64,000 nt of DNA from Bizionia argentinensis JUB59 (GTDB lineage: Bacteria; Bacteroidota; Bacteroidia; Flavobacteriales; Flavobacteriaceae). Shown here piece by piece: positions 24,278-32,030 of the stretch (position 1 is the stretch's first letter; the number at the start of each line of letters is the position of its first letter). The notes beneath the pieces are model-generated. The model made no database searches, was not told the DNA's origin, and worked only from the letters and a program-made list of their open reading frames with translations. Where the stretch lies: positions 62,001 to 126,000 of the forward strand of contig NZ_AFXZ01000067.1 in the NCBI RefSeq assembly GCF_000224335.1, written 5' to 3'. A program made the position numbers and the translations under genes.

Positions 24278-24895
24278 ATGTCTTTAAAAAAATCCATTCT
24301 TTTTATAATACTTATTTTACTGGTTGATCAGGTGAGTAAAATATATATAAAAACCCATTTTATTCTAGGCGAAGATGTTACCGTTTTTAATTGGTTTAAA
24401 ATTTACTTTATAGAAAATGATGGCATGGCCTGGGGAACCAAGATTAGCGATTTTGTTAGTTTTATTTCCGACAGAACGGCAAAAATAGCACTCACTGTTT
24501 TTAGAATTGTAGCAATTTTTGGGATTGGTTATTGGTTATATGATGCTACTAGAAAGCAAAATTCGCAAATACTAATATGGGCAGTTGCACTTATTTTTGC
24601 TGGTGCTTTAGGGAATATCATCGATTCGGTTTTTTATGGCGTTCTATTTGATGACAGCTTCGGTCAGGTAGCGAGTTTTATGCCAGCTTCTGGAGGTTAT
24701 GATGGTTTGTTACATGGAAAAGTGGTAGATATGCTCTATTTTCCATTATGGAAAGGCTATTTACCAGAATGGTTACCATTTTATGGCGGGACATACTTCA
24801 CTTTTTTCGATCCTGTTTTTAATATTGCCGATATGGCTATCAGTACAGGTTTTGGTTTACTTATAGTATTTAATAAAAGAGCGTTTGCAGATTAA
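24278..24895 (+). CDS. lspA: Signal peptidase II (prolipoprotein signal peptidase)
   Basis: LspA removes the signal peptide of lipoproteins after lipidation, at the inner membrane. It has four membrane segments and both catalytic aspartates: Asp116 in GALGNIIDS and Asp185 in FNIADMAIS. At 205 residues it is longer than E. coli LspA (164). The extra length is a periplasmic loop between about residues 118 and 175 (SFGQVASFMPASGGYDG and onward), typical of the Bacteroidota form. It processes the many lipoproteins encoded in this window. Confidence 0.97.
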   Translation: MSLKKSILFIILILLVDQVSKIYIKTHFILGEDVTVFNWFKIYFIENDGMAWGTKISDFVSFISDRTAKIALTVFRIVAIFGIGYWLYDATRKQNSQILIWAVALIFAGALGNIIDSVFYGVLFDDSFGQVASFMPASGGYDGLLHGKVVDMLYFPLWKGYLPEWLPFYGGTYFTFFDPVFNIADMAISTGFGLLIVFNKRAFAD

Positions 24896-25025: not shown

Positions 25026-25589
25026 TTAAAATGTATACGTTTTATTAGGAGTAACGCAATAATTTAAAGGGATATCTGTATCAAAAATACCTTTTATTTC
25101 GTTTTCAGCTTCAAAAAAGGACAACCCTATTTTTATAGTTTCAGGTTTGCATTTACTTAAAAACGTATCGTAAAATCCTTTACCGTATCCAACACGATGC
25201 CCTAGCTTATCAAAAGCTAATAAGGGAATAAATACCACATCTATTAAACTATTGTCTATGGGAATGCCATCAACTGGTTCTGGAATATTATAGGCGTTTT
25301 TCTTGATAACTGTGGCGTCTGTTAACAAAAAATTAGCCATGCTTCTCGTTTCAAAATCAGTTTTGGAAACAATGATGTGCTTATCTTTCCCAGAGAGAAT
25401 ACTTAAAATGTAATCCGTATTAATTTCTTTATGTTCAGTTATTGAGAGAAATATATGGTAGTATAAAGAATCCCAAATAGGTAATTCTAAAAGTTTATTA
25501 GCAATTTGCAGGCTTAATTCGTCTAGCGTCTCGTTGGAAAGCTCCTGTCGATTTTGCTTGTAAATTTTCCGTAATTCTTGCTTGGTCAT
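25026..25589 (-). CDS. 5-formyltetrahydrofolate cyclo-ligase
   Basis: A 187-residue MTHFS-family enzyme that converts 5-formyl-THF to 5,10-methenyl-THF with ATP. The N-terminal MTKQELRKIYKQNRQELS and the C-terminal nucleotide-binding motif GHRVGYGKGFYDTFL are diagnostic. It is last in the operon, 16 nt after the aspartoacylase-like gene; rimK and rimB come first. Its grouping with glutamate-ligase and glutamate-cleaving-type enzymes is notable because cellular folates carry polyglutamate tails. Confidence 0.93.
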   Translation of the reverse strand: MTKQELRKIYKQNRQELSNETLDELSLQIANKLLELPIWDSLYYHIFLSITEHKEINTDYILSILSGKDKHIIVSKTDFETRSMANFLLTDATVIKKNAYNIPEPVDGIPIDNSLIDVVFIPLLAFDKLGHRVGYGKGFYDTFLSKCKPETIKIGLSFFEAENEIKGIFDTDIPLNYCVTPNKTYTF

Positions 25590-25605
25590 ACAACAATCTA
25601 AATAA

Positions 25606-26574
25606 CTATTGGTTTTTTAATTTCGAGGTAATATGAAACAAGGCATCACCTTGATAAACAATTGGCGATTCATTCACATTAATAATATATCCCGAACTAT
25701 TGGCGCGTACAAAGTGGTTGAACTTTCCGTAAGGATCGGTGATATTGCCAATAATATCATCATTTTCAACTTTGGTGCTTATGGCAACCGAAGCTTTGAA
25801 CATACCGGAAAAATTAGCGCGTTGCCATTTACTAGCTGTAATAAAAACAGATTCTTTTTTAGGTTTACTCACCTTAAATTTAGAGTTTAACATACCCAAT
25901 CCATGCAACACACGTTTGGCTCCATTAACACCAGTATTAGTAACATTATCATCAATATGATTGGACTTTCCACCTTCATACAGCAACATAGGAATATGCG
26001 CCTTATAAGCTGTGCTTCTAAAGGATTTCTTTAGGTTTGAGGCATACAGTACAAATGGTGCACCAAAAGTTTTTGCTAAAGCATCTAGCTTGGAACTGTT
26101 TTTAGCAATACGTACTTGCGGTGCATTAAATCGACCGGAGCCACCGGTGTGAAAATCTATGACAAAATCTACTTCAGTAAGTACATCATTCACCAATTTA
26201 TAAGCAACGCGACTGGCAAGCGATCCGTTTTTTAGGCCTGGAAAGACCCGGTTTAAATCGCGACCATCCGGAAACTCGCGACTTAAGTTTATAAAACCAA
26301 AAATATTAATAACAGGAATGCAGATTACAGTTCCGCTTTTAGGCTTATTGATACCTTTGGCAATGAGTTGTCGGACTATTTCAACACCATTCACTTCATC
26401 GCCATGGATACCCGCTGTAAATAATACAGTTGGTCCAGGTTTTTTAGAGCGTTCTATAATAATAGGAACGTCAATAGATGAGGCCGTGTGTAATTTGGCA
26501 ACATCAAAATCAAGCTCATAGCTTTTGCCTGGCTCAATATTTTCTCCTAGAATAGTGATGATTTTTTGCGACAT
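25606..26574 (-). CDS. Succinylglutamate desuccinylase/aspartoacylase family zinc hydrolase
   Basis: A 322-residue M14-like metal-dependent amidohydrolase. Zinc ligands are visible: His57 and Glu60 in AGIHGDEVNG and His142 in VIDFHTGG. The NLSREFPDGRDLNRVFPG block and LLYEGG (catalytic Glu) complete the family pattern. The C-terminal beta domain ends in YQGDALFHITSK. Members remove acyl groups from amino acids (AstE, aspartoacylase), but this branch is often next to RimK and its substrate is unknown. It lies 2 nt after rimK and 16 nt before MTHFS. Confidence 0.88.
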   Translation of the reverse strand: MSQKIITILGENIEPGKSYELDFDVAKLHTASSIDVPIIIERSKKPGPTVLFTAGIHGDEVNGVEIVRQLIAKGINKPKSGTVICIPVINIFGFINLSREFPDGRDLNRVFPGLKNGSLASRVAYKLVNDVLTEVDFVIDFHTGGSGRFNAPQVRIAKNSSKLDALAKTFGAPFVLYASNLKKSFRSTAYKAHIPMLLYEGGKSNHIDDNVTNTGVNGAKRVLHGLGMLNSKFKVSKPKKESVFITASKWQRANFSGMFKASVAISTKVENDDIIGNITDPYGKFNHFVRANSSGYIINVNESPIVYQGDALFHITSKLKNQ

Positions 26575-26576
26575 AT

Positions 26577-27452
26577 TTATTTTCTATTTCGCTCAATAAA
26601 AGAAATAATAGATTTCGCAATATTTTTTCCTGTAGCGTCTTCAATACCTTCAAGACCTGGCGTAGAATTTACTTCTAATAATAAAGGACCCCTAGATGAT
26701 TGCAGCATGTCTACACCGCAAACAGGTAATTTTAAAGCCCGTGCAGATTCCATAGCTAAACGAAGTTCATCCTCGCTTAATTTGATAATGTTTGCCGTTC
26801 CTCCTCTATGTAAATTAGAACGAAATTCGCCTTCTTTACCTTGGCGTTTCATGGCACCAACCACTTGTCCGTCCACTACTAAAGCCCTTAAATCGGCCCC
26901 TTTAGCTTCTTTAATAAACTCTTGAACAATTACGCGCGCCTCTAAACCATTAAAAGCTTCTAAAACTGATTCGGCAGCGTTTTTAGTTTCTGCTAAAACT
27001 ACACCCAAACCTTGTGTGCCTTCTAGTAATTTAATAATTACCGGTGCACCTCCAACATGGGCAAGAACTTCTTTTGCGTCACGTGAATAATTGGTGAAAA
27101 CTGTTTTGGGCATACCAACTCCAGCTTTACTTAAAAGTTGTAAGCTTTTTAGTTTGTCGCGAGATCGTAAAATAGAGCCAGAAGAAACGATTGAGAATGC
27201 ACCCATCATTTCAAACTGTCTTACAACCGCACAGCCGTAAAAAGTAATAGATGCGCCAATTCTTGGAATAACAGCATCTACATAATCCAAATAACGGTCT
27301 TTATAATAAATGGTAGGTTTTTCTTTTTCTATGATGATGTCGCATTTTAACGGATCGATAACTTCAACTTTATGATTGCGTTTTTCTGCTTCTTCAACTA
27401 AACGTTTGGTTGAATATAAATGGGGGTTTCTGGATAGAATTACTATGTTCAT
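26577..27452 (-). CDS. rimK: RimK-type alpha-L-glutamate ligase (ATP-grasp)
   Basis: A 291-residue ATP-grasp ligase. The N-terminal [38 protein letters not shown] in the ATP-binding loop, LHRGGTANI and [14 protein letters not shown] are typical RimK motifs. E. coli RimK adds glutamates to the C-terminus of ribosomal protein S6 and makes poly-alpha-glutamate in vitro. It sits between the RimB-like protease (2 nt upstream) and the M14 hydrolase (2 nt downstream), so the three are translationally linked. Whether S6 is the substrate here is unproven. Confidence 0.93.
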
Positions 27453-27454
27453 AA

Positions 27455-27874
27455 TTATTTTTTATTAAATGATAGGTTTTGCACGTCCACATCGACTAGA
27501 AATTTTTTAGCTAAAAATTGTCTGCCAATCAATACGGGAAATCGCATATCATCACGTGTGCTTAAAGTTAGATTAATCTTATATGTTTTGCCAAAGAATA
27601 TGACTTCAGACTTTATTTTAAATCGGTTTTCCTTAAAGCCATTACTGCTTTTAACATTCGTTCGAGAGTATTCCGAAAATACAACCTCCTTGCCACTAAA
27701 ATTAGGGTGTCCTTTGCTGTAAAACTTGCAGCGTAAAGTACTGTTTTCTTCCGTTATTTCTGAACAATGAATCGCAGAAGTATATGCACCCGAGTCTATC
27801 TTAGCGTCAATTTCAAATAAATTAAGTTTAGGGAAGTCTATTTTATCAACCCTACCTATGAGTTGTTTTTTCAT
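27455..27874 (-). CDS. RimB-like retropepsin-type aspartic protease
   Basis: A 139-residue single-domain protein of the PF05618/'ATP-dependent zinc protease' group, now regarded as retropepsin-like. The catalytic Asp-Ser-Gly is at 27-29 in [12 protein letters not shown]. The closing strand motif [10 protein letters not shown] resembles the hydrophobic-hydrophobic-Gly feature of retropepsins. There is no signal peptide, so it is cytoplasmic, which fits RimB but not the periplasmic relatives. In Pseudomonas, RimB is encoded beside RimK and modulates its glutamylation. It is the first gene of this four-gene operon. Confidence 0.8.
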
Positions 27875-28008: not shown

Positions 28009-29802
28009 ATGCCAGAAACTGCTTTAGAAATACAATTAAAAACCTTGCCAAATGAGCCTGGTGTTTATCAATATTATGATAGCGAAGGTAAGATTTTATA
28101 TGTAGGTAAAGCAAAAAATTTAAAAAAACGAGTTAGCTCCTATTTCACAAAAACTCATGATAGTGGCAAGACACGCGTACTTGTTAAAAAAATAGTGAGT
28201 ATAAAACACATTGTTGTAAACACGGAAACCGATGCTTTATTACTTGAAAACAATCTAATTAAAAAGTATAGGCCACGTTATAATGTGTTATTAAAGGATG
28301 ATAAAACCTACCCTTGGATTTGTATTAAAAAAGAACGATTTCCTCGCGTATTTTCTACTAGGCGCGTTATAAAAGATGGCTCGGAGTATTTTGGACCCTA
28401 CACAAGCATGAAAACGGTATCCACGTTACTGGATCTAATTCGTGGACTTTTTCTATTACGAACTTGTAATTACGACTTATCAGAAGAGAAAATAGACACC
28501 GGTAAATATAAAGTTTGTTTAGAGTATCATTTAGGTAATTGCAAGGGGCCTTGTGAAGGTCTCGAGAGTGAAGTGGCATATCAGGAGAATATTATGGCAA
28601 TTAAAGAAATTCTTAAAGGTAATTTTAAAACGTCCTTGATTCAATTTAAAGCTCAAATGAAAGCGCTCGCTGCAAATATGCAGTTTGAAGAAGCTCAAAA
28701 AATTAAAGAAAAAATTGATGTGCTTGAAAATTACCAAGCAAAATCCACCATTGTTAATCCGAAAATTAGCAATGTAGATGTGTTTACAATTATGAGCGAT
28801 GAGGAATATGGTTATATTAATTTTCTGCAAATTTCTTATGGCTCTATTATCCGTTCGCACACATTAGAAATTAAAAAGAAATTGGATGAACCCGATAAAG
28901 AATTGTTGGAATTAGCCATTACAGAAATTCGCCAACGTTTTAATTCTAATTCTAAAGAACTCTATGTTCCGTTTGAAGTCGATTTGGGAGAAGATTTAAA
29001 AATCACCATTCCGCAATTGGGGGATAAAAAGCATATATTAGATCTGTCTTTGCGCAATGCGAAATATTATAGAATGGAACGCTTTAAGCAAGCGAAAATT
29101 ACAGATCCAGACCGACATGTAAATAGGATCATGGCACAAATGAAAACTGATTTACGTCTGCCAAAAGAGCCGCGGCACATTGAGTGTTTTGATAACTCTA
29201 ATATTCAAGGAACGCATCCAGTGGCAGCTTGTGTGGTCTTTAAAAATGGAAAACCTAGTAAGAAAGATTATAGACATTTCAATATAAAATCAGTAGTAGG
29301 TCCCGATGATTTTGCTTCTATGGAAGAGGTGGTTTACAGACGTTACAAGCGTTTATTGGATGAAGATCAGCCTTTGCCGCAGCTTGTAATTATTGATGGA
29401 GGAAAAGGGCAATTATCATCATCACTAAAAAGTTTGGACGCTTTAAATTTGCGAGGAAAAATTGCAATCATCGGAATTGCAAAACGTTTAGAGGAATTAT
29501 TCTATCCAGACGATCCAATTCCCTTATATTTAGATAAAAAAAGTGAAACACTTAAAATAATTCAACAATTACGAAATGAAGCCCATCGTTTTGGATTGGA
29601 ACACCACCGAAATAAACGTAGTAAAACGGCGTTAAATACGGAGTTGGAAACTATTCCAGGCATAGGCGAAAAAACAATTGTAGATTTACTAAAGCATTTT
29701 AAAAGTACAAAACGTATTTCCGAAGCAACCAAACAAGAATTAGAAGCTGTAGTTGGGGTTTCTCGAGCAAGTAAAGTTTTTAATTATTATCACAAGTTAT
29801 GA
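28009..29802 (+). CDS. uvrC: Excinuclease ABC subunit C
   Basis: UvrC makes the two incisions in nucleotide excision repair. The 597-residue protein has, in order, the GIY-YIG nuclease (GVYQYYDSEGKILYVGKAKN, about residues 18-37), the cysteine-containing spacer, a UVR helix pair (about 200-235), the RNase H-like C-terminal nuclease starting at ECFDNSNIQGTHPVA, and a helix-hairpin-helix (IPGIGEKTIVDLLKHF). The start matches the family N-terminus. It overlaps the patatin gene by 4 nt (ATGA), giving translational coupling. Confidence 0.97.
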   Translation: MPETALEIQLKTLPNEPGVYQYYDSEGKILYVGKAKNLKKRVSSYFTKTHDSGKTRVLVKKIVSIKHIVVNTETDALLLENNLIKKYRPRYNVLLKDDKTYPWICIKKERFPRVFSTRRVIKDGSEYFGPYTSMKTVSTLLDLIRGLFLLRTCNYDLSEEKIDTGKYKVCLEYHLGNCKGPCEGLESEVAYQENIMAIKEILKGNFKTSLIQFKAQMKALAANMQFEEAQKIKEKIDVLENYQAKSTIVNPKISNVDVFTIMSDEEYGYINFLQISYGSIIRSHTLEIKKKLDEPDKELLELAITEIRQRFNSNSKELYVPFEVDLGEDLKITIPQLGDKKHILDLSLRNAKYYRMERFKQAKITDPDRHVNRIMAQMKTDLRLPKEPRHIECFDNSNIQGTHPVAACVVFKNGKPSKKDYRHFNIKSVVGPDDFASMEEVVYRRYKRLLDEDQPLPQLVIIDGGKGQLSSSLKSLDALNLRGKIAIIGIAKRLEELFYPDDPIPLYLDKKSETLKIIQQLRNEAHRFGLEHHRNKRSKTALNTELETIPGIGEKTIVDLLKHFKSTKRISEATKQELEAVVGVSRASKVFNYYHKL

Positions 29803-32030
29803 AGTACCGTATATTAGTTTTTTGTTTTTTTGTCTTCATGACTGGGTTTTCACAAACCCAAGATTCTGAAATGGATGTGAAAGTCGGTTTGGTTTTAAGT
29901 GGTGGTGGCGCTAAAGGTTTGGCACATATTGGTGTGCTCAAAGTTATTGACAGTTTGGGTATTCGTATAGATTATGTGGCAGGAACTAGTATGGGCGCCA
30001 TTATTGGTTCGTTATATGCGGCAGGATATTCAGGAAAACAGATTGATACTATTTTTCGAGATGTTGATTTTGATAAAATCGTAAATGACAATTTACCACG
30101 TGCAGCCAAAACATTTTACGAGCGTGATAATGCGGAAAGATATGCCGTTATTTTACCTTTCGATAAATTTAAACTTAAATTACCTTCAGCTTTATCTAGA
30201 GGTCAAAACACGTTAAGCTTGCTGTCCAAACTAACTTTGCACGTAAGTGATGTGGACGATTTCAGTAAACTACCTATCCCATTTTTTTGTGTTGCCACTG
30301 ATGTAGAAACGGGTAAAGCTGTGATTTTAGATAAAGGTAGTTTGGCACAATCTACATTGGCTAGCGGTGCATTTCCATCGCTATTTCAGCCAGTTGTTAT
30401 TGATGATCAAATTTTAATTGATGGTGGTGTGGTAAATAATTATCCGATAGACGAGCTGAAGGCAAAAGGCATGGATATTATTATTGGGGTGGATGTTCAA
30501 GATGGCTTAGCAACGCGAGAAGCTTTGAAGTCTGCGCCGGATATTATTCTTCAAATTAATAATTATCGAACTATTAATGATATGATATGGAAGTCTAAAA
30601 AAACGGATGTTTACATAAAACCTGATATTACTGACTATACAGTGGTCTCTTTTGGTGAAGGTGCTAAAATTATTTCAAATGGTGTTTTGGCGGCACAAAA
30701 AGAATCCGAAATTTTAGAGCGTATTGTAAGACAGCAAATTGTTAAACCCAAAGTGTTTACGCCAATAAATGTAAGTGATAGTATTCGTATAAACAATATA
30801 AATATAAAGGGAATTGAAAAGTATTCGCGCGCTTTTGTTCTAGGTAAATTGAAGATTAAACCAGATAAAAAAATTGAATATAACACGTTTATTGAAGGTG
30901 TTAATAATTTGGCAGCTACTAATAACTTTGATTCTGTTATGCATCAATTGGTAGCTACAGGAAATGAAGAGGAGTACGATTTAGATGTTAACGTCATAGA
31001 AACGCAAACACGAACCTTTTTCAAGGTAGGTTTGCATTATGACGATTTATATAAAACAGGTGTTTTGCTTAATTTAACGCGAAAACGTTTGTTGCTAAAC
31101 GATGATGTGGCTTCTTTAGATTTTGTTTTAGGTGATAATATTCGATATAATTTTGATTACTATATAGATAAAGGTTTTTATTGGAGTGTGGGTTTAACCT
31201 CACGCTATAATCAATTTAAAAAAAATGTTCTAGCATCTTCCTTATTATCTGATGATGATTTAATGACAATCAATGTAAATAAATTGGATATCGAGGTTTC
31301 AGATTTTACCAATCAGTTTTACGTGCAAACTTTATTAGGTAATGATTTCTCATTAGCCTTGGGTGCCGAGCATAAGCGGTTTAAAGCTATTTCTGAAACT
31401 ATTTTAACGAGTTCTAGTACTGAAGAAACTACCTTTGATAATAGTGACTATTTAAGTGTTTATGGTAAACTAAAATTAGATACTTACGATAATAAGTATT
31501 TCCCAAATGAAGGATTTTTCTTTGATGGAGATTTTCATTTATATTTATATTCATCGGACTATAATGATAATTTTTCAGAATTTTCAATTGGGAAAGCTAC
31601 AATGGGTTATGCTAAAAGTCTTGGTAAATTTTCTACTAATATTACGATGCAAGGTGGATTTAAAATAGGAGAAGATCCTTCACCTTATTTAGAATTTGTA
31701 TTGGGTGGATATGGCCATAATCTAATTAATAATTTTACTTCTTTTTATGGTTATGATTATTTGTCAATTCCAGGAAATAGCTTCGTTAAAACAACGGTAA
31801 CTCTAGATTATGAATTGTTTAAAAAACAACATATTATAGCATCTGGTAATTTCGCTAATGTGGCTGATAACATTTTTGATTCTGGAGAATGGTTTACCTC
31901 ACCAAATTATACGGGCTATGCACTTGGTTATTCCATAGAAACATTTATTGGTCCTATTGAAGCCAAATACAGCTGGTCTCCCGAAGTTAAAAAAAGCATT
32001 TGGTATTTTAATCTAGGCTTCTGGTTTTAG
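29799..32030 (+). CDS. Patatin-like phospholipase with POTRA and outer-membrane barrel
   Basis: A 743-residue secreted protein with signal peptide MKYRILVFCFFVFMTGFSQ. The patatin domain (about residues 28-220) has GGGAKGLAH, the catalytic serine in GTSMG (Ser64) and the catalytic Asp208 in DGGV. A POTRA-like segment follows (about 325-405), then a beta-barrel of the surface-antigen/BamA class ending in the aromatic strand WYFNLGFWF. The architecture resembles type Vd autotransporters such as PlpD, placing a lipase in or across the outer membrane. It overlaps the uvrC stop by 4 nt, an unexplained pairing. Confidence 0.9.
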   Translation: MKYRILVFCFFVFMTGFSQTQDSEMDVKVGLVLSGGGAKGLAHIGVLKVIDSLGIRIDYVAGTSMGAIIGSLYAAGYSGKQIDTIFRDVDFDKIVNDNLPRAAKTFYERDNAERYAVILPFDKFKLKLPSALSRGQNTLSLLSKLTLHVSDVDDFSKLPIPFFCVATDVETGKAVILDKGSLAQSTLASGAFPSLFQPVVIDDQILIDGGVVNNYPIDELKAKGMDIIIGVDVQDGLATREALKSAPDIILQINNYRTINDMIWKSKKTDVYIKPDITDYTVVSFGEGAKIISNGVLAAQKESEILERIVRQQIVKPKVFTPINVSDSIRINNINIKGIEKYSRAFVLGKLKIKPDKKIEYNTFIEGVNNLAATNNFDSVMHQLVATGNEEEYDLDVNVIETQTRTFFKVGLHYDDLYKTGVLLNLTRKRLLLNDDVASLDFVLGDNIRYNFDYYIDKGFYWSVGLTSRYNQFKKNVLASSLLSDDDLMTINVNKLDIEVSDFTNQFYVQTLLGNDFSLALGAEHKRFKAISETILTSSSTEETTFDNSDYLSVYGKLKLDTYDNKYFPNEGFFFDGDFHLYLYSSDYNDNFSEFSIGKATMGYAKSLGKFSTNITMQGGFKIGEDPSPYLEFVLGGYGHNLINNFTSFYGYDYLSIPGNSFVKTTVTLDYELFKKQHIIASGNFANVADNIFDSGEWFTSPNYTGYALGYSIETFIGPIEAKYSWSPEVKKSIWYFNLGFWF

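Follow-up and report, generated by a model that had tools for sequence, protein, structure and literature searches.

A RimK ligase and an AstE/AspA-type hydrolase as the conserved core of a candidate poly-alpha-glutamate cycle in flavobacteria

The locus lies in a window of 64,000 nucleotides of the Bizionia argentinensis genome, to which all coordinates refer, and was characterized by reading through the open reading frame (ORF) list together with Pfam and NCBI equivalog profiles. Four minus-strand ORFs, separated in that list by gaps of 2, 2 and 16 nt, are enclosed by two plus-strand genes:

28009..29802, plus strand: uvrC, one border of the locus (homologues by tblastn)
27455..27874, minus strand: RimB-like retropepsin (PF05618), 139 aa (ORF, Pfam, motif)
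26577..27452, minus strand: RimK alpha-L-glutamate ligase (ATP-grasp), 291 aa (ORF, Pfam, equivalog score)
25606..26574, minus strand: AstE/AspA-type zinc amidohydrolase, RimK-linked subfamily, 322 aa (ORF, Pfam, residues)
25026..25589, minus strand: MTHFS (5-formyltetrahydrofolate cyclo-ligase), 187 aa (ORF, Pfam, TIGR02727)
24278..24895, plus strand: lspA-type gene, the opposite border (homologues by tblastn)

The border genes are presumably uvrC and lspA, giving the order lspA, MTHFS, rim cassette, uvrC, and MTHFS is probably co-transcribed with the trio of RimB-like, RimK and hydrolase genes. An earlier note on this DNA had described four minus-strand genes with these gaps, as the ORF coordinates bear out, and the residues it had placed at D27-S28-G29 in the first protein and His57/Glu60/His142 in the third lie where it put them. 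Only these four genes stand between the lspA-type gene and uvrC, and none encodes an EAL-domain RimA, whose gene, according to PMC12239564, occurs in the rim locus of only some Pseudomonas.

RimK scores 143.7 bits against PF18030 and 218.3 bits against PF08443, and it passes the S6--L-glutamate ligase equivalog (PRK10446) with 378.7 bits against a cut-off of 331. All 16 positions checked by alignment, taken from the P. aeruginosa structure paper (PMC10092738), are identical to those of P. aeruginosa RimK; seven contact the glutamate chain, six contact ADP and three line the cleft. Profiles, equivalog score and site residues thus agree with the previous call of an ATP-grasp alpha-glutamate ligase. 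The protein falls below the equivalogs for the tetrahydromethanopterin ligase MptN (160.7 vs 350) and the F420 ligase CofF (93.5 vs 300). Pseudomonas makes poly-alpha-glutamate as a free polymer in vivo (PMC11957791), and the RimK of the window would do likewise.

RimK is named for ribosomal protein S6, yet the S6 of this clade carries no terminal glutamate. The S6 of the genome ends in ...RRRVKLKEKA and so lacks the canonical C-terminal glutamate for which a check had been proposed. A C-terminal Glu occurs in 0 of the 28 readable S6 sequences, this one included (RimK-positive genomes supplied 19 of them and RimK-negative ones 9; of the original 30 loci, two were left out for want of a readable S6). 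Judged by these termini, S6 is an unlikely target of RimK here. The Pseudomonas scheme, in which RimK polyglutamylates S6 and two hydrolases reverse the modification, agrees with the equivalog score and with the published editing of S6 by RimB-RimK in P. fluorescens; faced with a KLKEKA end and 28 S6 sequences without a final Glu, it is very unlikely to operate in this clade.

The first gene encodes a member of the retropepsin family PF05618 (Zn_protease; 53.4 bits against a cut-off of 27). In this respect its former designation as a RimB homologue stands, but the NCBI RimB equivalog NF052261 is not reached (56.1 bits vs 200), and the protein is therefore called RimB-like. The named loci used in the comparisons below comprise the best 80 among 577 confirmed relatives and so lean to near relatives. 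Among 39 aligned RimB sequences, from the window and 38 named loci, D27 and G29 are invariant, and the motif reads DTG in 36 and DSG in 3. By analogy with P. fluorescens RimB, which stimulates poly-alpha-Glu synthesis, cleaves Glu stretches once they reach about five residues and also cuts terminal polyGlu on a further protein (PMC11957791), this protein is a predicted endopeptidase for oligo-alpha-glutamate. In P. aeruginosa, the RimK ATPase is lowered, not raised, by RimB (PMC10092738). Because RimB was not found in 40/80 named loci, where the locus itself was searched, it is no essential member of the unit.

The third enzyme scores 116 bits against PF24827 (AstE_AspA_cat; cut-off 25). Of its earlier description as an M14 hydrolase, the resemblance to aspartoacylase/desuccinylase-type zinc enzymes holds, whereas a classical M14 carboxypeptidase is not what was found; it is an AstE/AspA-type amidohydrolase. 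In the alignment it keeps HxxE...H (H57, E60, H142), N108-R109 and E200, and we take the first three residues to be the zinc ligands and E200 to be the catalytic glutamate. It scores below the equivalogs for DoeB (TIGR02994; 72.6 vs 402.7) and AstE (TIGR03242; 19.6 vs 305.65). A six-residue signature (R148, N150, R155, R186, W250, R252) is present in 80/80 named loci and in all 16 aligned RimK-linked hydrolases, and is absent from 10/10 comparators, which include two PDB entries irrespective of RimK linkage: 2qj8 lacks all six residues and a partial stretch of 3cdx the four that it covers. These groups omit two haloarchaeal sequences, in which the signature is present, and a degenerate one from Legionella lytica.

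The predicted hydrolase fold matches DoeB (Z 33.0), CphZ (8eip; Z 26.1, with 19% identity over 298 aligned residues, a shared fold that shows no function), the D,L-carboxypeptidase Csd4 (Z 19.5), aspartoacylase (ASPA; Z 17.9) and CCP5 (Z 17.3 over 216 residues). The nine folds with the highest Z comprise a dipeptide hydrolase and members of the deacylase family, several of which have no assigned function; this list re-examines Foldseek's own matches and leaves room for families outside it. DoeB, an N-acetyl-diaminobutyrate deacetylase of the AstE/AspA family (PF24827), shares the HxxE...H, N-R and Glu residues and the overall fold, whereas the six signature residues set the RimK-linked subfamily apart. 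As the best-matched characterized relative, a deacetylase of a diamino acid, it counts against an oligoglutamate role. These likenesses would suit a pathway in which RimK extends an N-acyl acidic amino acid by Glu, with the AspA-like enzyme removing the acyl group from the product or its precursor, as modelled by mammalian RIMKLA and aspartoacylase with N-acetylaspartylglutamate; the matches to aspartoacylase and DoeB and the retained catalytic pattern agree with it. However, RimK keeps a long poly-Glu binding site, many loci have a linked or fused RimB, a polyglutamate endopeptidase for which an N-acyl dipeptide would have no need, and no acetyltransferase is annotated in six plasmid loci that carry the trio. 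An N-acyl pathway is accordingly given low odds.

In eukaryotes, TTLL ligases and CCP deglutamylases form a pair that acts on protein side-chain tails of tubulin, and here too a glutamate ligase faces a zinc enzyme, one whose fold is broadly the same. RimK might similarly alpha-glutamylate one or several proteins other than S6 at the C-terminus, with RimB and the zinc hydrolase removing the tail. The chemistry of the RimK family, the fold matches to CCP5 and Csd4, and the cleavage of terminal polyGlu on a further protein by RimB (PMC11957791) speak for such editing. In contrast, the best folds are those of deacylases and a dipeptide hydrolase, Pseudomonas makes free polymer in vivo, and a non-systematic look at the annotated neighbours of the trio in six plasmid loci revealed no obvious conserved substrate or target gene; elsewhere, neighbours were ORFs of at least 90 aa. 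Editing of this kind is unlikely, if conceivable.

RimK and the AstE/AspA-type hydrolase are the conserved core of the locus. Among 148 Bacteroidota genomes, 44 have both, 1 has the hydrolase alone, 4 have RimK alone and 99 have neither; Fisher tests on this sample ignore shared ancestry and thereby overstate independence. The pair is adjacent in 34/44 of these genomes, and in 5/44 the two genes are unlinked without a fusion-length RimK. Within the Flavobacteriaceae (199 genomes; presence taken from full positive lists, adjacency counts being lower bounds), RimK is present in 143/143 hydrolase-positive genomes and the hydrolase in 0/32 RimK-negative ones. The hydrolase is not obligatory, being absent from 24/167 RimK-positive family genomes, in three of which a stand-alone RimK still lies by MTHFS. 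The arrangement of the two genes is more than chance, because RimK adjoins the hydrolase in 70/80 named loci, and 58 of the 69 measured gaps are 30 nt or shorter (genes were started at the first ATG, and some overlaps may be overlong starts). In the other 10 named loci RimK is not beside the hydrolase, and all 10 genomes encode a RimB-RimK fusion elsewhere, with both domains in 10/10. The earlier proposal of a writer with erasers is therefore sustained insofar as co-occurrence, adjacency, fusions and conserved residues join RimK and the hydrolases as one functional unit, but not in its link to folate.

Outside the phylum, RimB, RimK and the hydrolase adjoin in two Salinivibrio, two Vibrio, one Photobacterium, Phaeobacter and Acaryochloris. 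In three haloarchaea, a fusion in reversed order, RimK first (order by Pfam in one), stands beside the divergent hydrolase at 115-162 bp between matched stretches; such a fusion neighbours the hydrolase in only 3 of 26 haloarchaeal records among the matches listed. The hydrolase of Haloferax larsenii bears the full signature, yet no RimK lies within 4 kb, and a plasmid copy in Vibrio parahaemolyticus has no RimK nearby. Plasmid records with a hydrolase match number 111, of which 13 were examined (three of them reached through RimK matches), and those with a RimK match number 37, with surroundings examined in 13; in 10 of these 13 loci around RimK matches there is no hydrolase match within 4 kb.

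The fourth gene encodes MTHFS, which scores 91.1 bits against PF01812 (5-FTHF cyclo-ligase; cut-off 27) and passes the TIGR02727 equivalog (112.6 vs 84.9). On the strength of this gene, the earlier note had raised the possibility that the edited tail is on folates, and it had set conservation of MTHFS with the other three genes as a test; RimK would then alpha-glutamylate folates, the other enzymes would remove the tail and MTHFS would act in the pathway. Within the family, MTHFS does share the locus of the hydrolase in 78/80 named loci (median gap 0 nt, n=78) and lies within 5 kb of it in at least 102/143 genomes sampled. A glutamate tail on the C1 carrier methylofuran in Methylorubrum (PMC8141765) and RimK homologues that serve methanogen coenzymes lend the idea some analogy. 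Nevertheless, the lspA-MTHFS-uvrC place is kept without any rim gene in 19/20 regions examined within the family and also in three genomes with the RimK-hydrolase pair elsewhere. Of 21 hydrolase-negative genomes for which an MTHFS match was listed, 19 supplied one region each, and the twentieth region is from G099, which has a hydrolase fragment elsewhere; in the remaining two of the 21, G042 and G142, RimK lies beside MTHFS. MTHFS is not conserved with the trio outside the family: it lies within 5 kb of the hydrolase in 0/32 non-family hydrolase-positive genomes, 30 of which have MTHFS, and is not annotated within 4 kb in any of six trio loci outside the phylum. RimK also falls short of both pterin- and F420-type coenzyme ligase equivalogs. 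Because of this synteny folate is rejected as the conserved link, and folate-tail editing is extremely improbable; MTHFS seems to be a positional neighbour only, not part of the conserved unit.

Taken as a unit, the first three genes most plausibly form a poly-alpha-glutamate cycle, to which we assign a probability of about 0.55. RimK would link L-glutamate into alpha-joined chains at the expense of ATP. The RimB-like retropepsin would cut chains from about five residues upwards and might also modulate RimK, and the zinc hydrolase would finish short oligoglutamates or trim chain ends to free glutamate. In this clade the product would be either unattached polymer or a tail carried by a molecule other than S6. 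MTHFS would be a long-standing resident of the interval between lspA and uvrC, with the cassette placed next to it. From the present analysis the cycle draws on gene content, active-site residues, co-occurrence, adjacency, fusions, S6 ends and MTHFS synteny, whereas poly-alpha-glutamate synthesis and RimB cleavage come from published Pseudomonas work. Free polymer from the RimK of the window, oligoglutamate cleavage by the third enzyme, whose function is predicted, and an osmotic or ionic purpose are parts that we infer.

The trio's division of labour resembles that of the cyanophycin enzymes CphA, CphB and CphZ, an ATP-grasp polymerase (CphA), a polymer-specific peptidase and a finishing hydrolase, the last with the fold of the third enzyme (Z ~26). 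It is an analogue, not a member, of that system, and the third enzyme's role is predicted: the polymer differs, and CphB is an exopeptidase releasing dipeptides, whereas RimB is an aspartic endopeptidase. Pseudomonas RimK-RimB (RimABK) is alike in its ATP-grasp ligase, with the 16 identical positions, and its RimB-family retropepsin; here, in contrast, RimK is accompanied more constantly by the AstE/AspA-type hydrolase than by RimB, which many of the loci lack, and S6 has no C-terminal Glu. No publication pairing RimK with this hydrolase was found among the records listed by a title- and abstract-level search that left most subscription papers outside, and the pairing is not claimed to be unpublished; a 2009 amidoligase survey by Iyer and colleagues may reportedly describe RimK neighbourhoods with such peptidases. 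RloA-RloB-RloC of P. aeruginosa likewise combines a retropepsin with an ATP-grasp enzyme and polyGlu cleavage, but RloA is secreted, RloB, a membrane protein, is an inactive transglutaminase, and the operon as described has no AstE/AspA hydrolase (PMC12239564).

That system has a hypo-osmotic phenotype (PMC12239564). MscS, MgtE and/or CorA flank the RimK-hydrolase pair in 5 of the 6 Vibrionaceae loci examined, and in a published transcriptome Photobacterium damselae rimK, irrespective of any hydrolase neighbour, is induced 52-fold at 1% relative to 3% NaCl. These neighbours and this induction at low salinity, from one family and one transcriptome, suggest osmotic or ionic adjustment as the trio's purpose. 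A search for MscS, MgtE, CorA, ZntB, PsiE and Usp neighbours in 86 flavobacterial loci gave one match (MscS-like). It is conceivable, though doubtful, that RimK, RimB and the hydrolase act as an osmotic buffer in bacteria and haloarchaea. At low salinity, part of the glutamate osmolyte would be polymerized to poly-alpha-glutamate, so that fewer particles remain but the negative charge balancing K+ and Mg2+ is preserved; when salinity is high, RimB and the hydrolase would return the polymer to free glutamate. The hydrolase nearly tracks RimK across the phylum, and the two are also neighbours in Proteobacteria, in a cyanobacterium and, with the fusion, in haloarchaea, which points to a poly-alpha-glutamate economy. 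If so, the physiological amino-acid polymers would include poly-alpha-glutamate alongside poly-gamma-glutamate and cyanophycin.

Phage carriage of the hydrolase was considered and set aside, the matches being just weak ones (24-28% identity, in 6 records). By eye, and among ORFs of at least 90 aa, flavobacterial RimK-hydrolase pairs located away from uvrC have succinate-dehydrogenase-like or otherwise variable flanks.

The four-gene arrangement described in the earlier note is borne out, with all four gene families matched by Pfam at the spacing listed here, and the active-site residues that it cited are found in the window proteins.

25026-27874, minus strand: four-gene locus, gaps of 2, 2 and 16 nt
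First gene, minus strand: RimB-like retropepsin (PF05618)
Second gene, minus strand: RimK (PF18030 and PF08443)
Third gene, minus strand: AstE/AspA-type zinc amidohydrolase (PF24827), here the hydrolase
Fourth gene, minus strand: 5-formyl-THF cyclo-ligase, MTHFS (PF01812)

RimK scores above the NCBI equivalog cut-off for S6--L-glutamate ligase (378.7 vs 331) and below those of the tetrahydromethanopterin, F420 and LysX ligases. RimB stays under its own NCBI equivalog cut-off (56.1 vs 200), and the hydrolase under those of DoeB and AstE.

RimK and the hydrolase form a conserved core. Among 40 relatives, an identical set of 23 genomes carries the hydrolase together with a strong RimK match (E below 1e-80), and the other 17 carry neither, two of them showing a weak ATP-grasp match. 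In raw counts, uncorrected for shared ancestry, the hydrolase occurs in 143 and RimK in 167 of 199 sampled family genomes; RimK is present in all 143 hydrolase-positive genomes, and the hydrolase in none of the 32 RimK-negative ones. Equally raw counts from 148 high-quality genomes of the phylum give 44 with both, one with the hydrolase only (the weakest match, perhaps a paralogue), four with RimK only and 99 with neither; 34 of the 44 pairs are adjacent, five have a fusion-length RimK elsewhere and five are unlinked. Within the named Flavobacteriaceae loci (the best 80 of 577 confirmed relatives), RimK lies beside the hydrolase in 70, with a median gap of 4 nt (n = 69), and RimB is matched in 40. 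The remaining ten loci have a hydrolase without adjoining RimK, and all ten genomes encode RimB (first third) and RimK (remainder) as a single frame elsewhere, one of which is also seen by Pfam; the hydrolase is thus retained where stand-alone RimK is absent and the fusion is present.

Adjacency of RimB, RimK and the hydrolase extends to Salinivibrio kushneri, S. proteolyticus, Vibrio europaeus, V. nigripulchritudo, Photobacterium sp. DA100, Phaeobacter inhibens and Acaryochloris, and RimK adjoins the hydrolase, with no RimB match, in Photobacterium sp. GJ3. The Halorarius fusion places RimK first and RimB second (Pfam), an order reported for Halobacteria in 2008 (PMC2530865). In Halorarius, Salinirubellus and Halolamina, the fusion and the hydrolase are divergently arranged, with 115-162 bp separating their matched stretches; this amounts to 3 of 11 haloarchaeal records with a fusion match and 3 of 26 among the hydrolase matches listed. 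Because linkage holds for either order of the fusion and across distant lineages, these sequences argue for RimK, RimB and the hydrolase being one functional unit, a linkage that is not general in haloarchaeal plasmids. The parts are of known kinds; the wider role of RimK becomes testable through a third partner that is nearly constant, widespread and marked by a signature of its own.

The window hydrolase retains H57, E60, H142, E200 and N108-R109. Six further residues (R148, N150, R155, R186, W250 and R252) are common to all 80 named loci, again the best 80 of 577, and to 16 of 16 aligned RimK-linked hydrolases (the window, seven other Flavobacteriales, six Vibrionaceae, Phaeobacter and Acaryochloris). 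Two haloarchaeal relatives share them, from Halorarius (beside the fusion) and Haloferax (no RimK nearby). None of the six is present, where covered, in any of ten comparators: two partly covered PDB proteins, two from Cytobacillus and six flavobacterial paralogues on contigs other than that of RimK. The additional arginines would fit an acidic substrate. The AlphaFold2 model (pLDDT 88.8) is closest to 3cdx (Z 34.6) and DoeB (33.0), followed by other family entries, then the cyanophycin dipeptide hydrolase CphZ (26.1), with Csd4 (19.5), AstE (18.6), ASPA (17.9) and CCP5 (17.3) lower. A relative on a Legionella lytica plasmid (L219:4001-5026), in neither alignment group, has both zinc-ligand histidines and the catalytic glutamate replaced and is probably inactive.

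The earlier note suggested that RimK may write, and hydrolases erase, a glutamate tail, possibly on folate rather than, or as well as, a ribosomal protein. That pairing of writer and erasers gains partial support and is extended here; neither folate nor S6 is supported as its target. MTHFS occurs in 78 of the 80 named loci (best 80 of 577), at a gap of 30 nt or less in 58 of the 78, and is probably co-transcribed with the cassette at present. Three genomes (G006, G016 and G023) keep the order ileS-lspA-MTHFS-uvrC without any rim gene, with RimK and the hydrolase at another site, and lspA-MTHFS-uvrC is kept in 19 of 20 further cassette-free regions; the single region with MTHFS outside this neighbourhood is L171, from genome G199. 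In the family sample, MTHFS lies within 5 kb in at least 102 of the 143 hydrolase-positive genomes, and in at least 27 the listed MTHFS is elsewhere (one on a short contig). Of the hydrolase-positive genomes in the phylum sample, 9 of 13 within the family and none of 32 from outside it have MTHFS within 5 kb, although 30 of those 32 possess the gene (nearest 15.8 kb, start to start). It is annotated in none of six trio loci from other phyla, and the window MTHFS found no tblastn match in 23 plasmid stretches. MTHFS keeps its place without the cassette and is not nearby outside the family; the position of the cassette between uvrC and MTHFS is therefore a feature of one large lineage. MTHFS is a neighbour by position, and nothing seen requires a folate function. 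S6 is an unlikely target here: the organism's own S6 (112 aa) ends in RRRVKLKEKA, and none of 28 readable S6 proteins from 30 loci (19 from RimK-positive genomes, nine from RimK-negative) has a C-terminal glutamate. A 2025 RimB paper likewise mentions some RimK-bearing bacteria with no Glu-ended RpsF (PMC11957791).

A poly-alpha-glutamate cycle is the preferred reading, in which RimK would polymerise, RimB would act as endopeptidase and the hydrolase would finish degradation, closing the cycle. In P. fluorescens, RimB increases the specific ATPase activity of RimK about fourfold, polymer is seen in vitro only with both proteins, in chains of up to 28-36 residues, in vivo levels are low, and RimB requires about five or six contiguous glutamates (PMC11957791). 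In P. aeruginosa, by contrast, RimB decreases RimK ATPase, and the RimK crystal structure includes a glutamate chain (PMC10092738). Window RimK is identical to P. aeruginosa RimK at 16 of 16 positions taken from that report; four of these are changed in the ten flavobacterial fusions. In the cyanophycin cycle, CphA, CphB and CphZ have roles parallel to those proposed for RimK, RimB and the hydrolase, although CphB is an exopeptidase (PMC12661447).

The Vibrionaceae neighbours offer a lead to the purpose of the RimK-hydrolase pair. MscS, MgtE and/or CorA flank it, in varied gene orders, at five of six loci (Salinivibrio twice, V. europaeus, V. nigripulchritudo with MscS only, and Photobacterium GJ3) and were not found at the Photobacterium DA100 locus. 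The Phaeobacter trio neighbours zntB and psiE, that of Acaryochloris has a cation:proton antiporter at greater distance, and one of 86 flavobacterial loci has an MscS/MgtE/CorA/ZntB/PsiE/Usp match. Published salinity data agree with this lead in direction. For the brackish/marine comparison, we take the glutamate-modification KO to be rimK (K05844). Brackish genomes carry that KO, a mechanosensitive channel (K03282) and a magnesium-uptake KO (K03284) more often than marine ones (PMC10219603). Photobacterium damselae shows a 52.24-fold rise of rimK and a 5.35-fold rise of MgtE at 1% relative to 3% NaCl, the rimK rise being interpreted by the authors as ribosome modification (PMC10308900). Related RloA proteases cleave polyGlu and are required under hypo-osmotic stress, and their authors suggest glutamate as an osmolyte (PMC12239564). 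Because neighbours and low-salinity data agree in direction, the cycle might serve as an osmotic buffer, with glutamate polymerised at low salinity and freed at high salinity, a reading to which we assign a probability of roughly one in five.

Exceptions to the pairing occur. The hydrolase is missing from 24 of 167 RimK-positive family genomes; 14 of these are among the RimK matches listed, 11 with fusion-length RimK and three (G042, G142 and G186) with stand-alone RimK adjoining MTHFS. Around 13 plasmid RimK matches, the hydrolase lies within 4 kb in three and not in ten: RimK with RimB in Vibrio campbellii, Vibrio sp. THAF190c and Halomonas sp. PA16-9; RimK alone in Leisingera caerulea, Allocoleopsis and Aeromonas caviae; and both in one frame in two Thioclava, Aureibacter (Pfam) and Persicobacter. 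Conversely, no RimK match lies within 4 kb of the hydrolases of Haloferax larsenii and a Vibrio parahaemolyticus plasmid (L222), the latter an unannotated two-piece match, probably a broken gene or sequencing error. Ten family genomes (L236-L245) carry tandem RimK copies before the hydrolase, seven with a RimB frame between them. Alanine replaces arginine at Glu-binding-site position 8 in nine of ten first copies, and the second keeps arginine in nine of nine readable cases, a possible division of labour.

On the Aureibacter tunicatorum plasmid (L227:3521-7849), the genes after the fusion encode three tandem 56-aa DUF1843 proteins ending in Lys, not Glu, one radical SAM protein and one methyltransferase; this could be a peptide-modification cluster. 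RimK-like genes (32-34% identity) also occur in Synechococcus cyanophages (records H156-H169), which agrees with a 2008 report of RimK on phage-like marine contigs (PMC2530865). Downstream of uvrC in the window, 29799-32030 encodes a large protein. Its N-terminus resembles patatin, with GXSXG and DGG spotted by eye, and its C-terminus is probably a beta-barrel; homologues adjoin uvrC in what look like most of the loci reaching that far.
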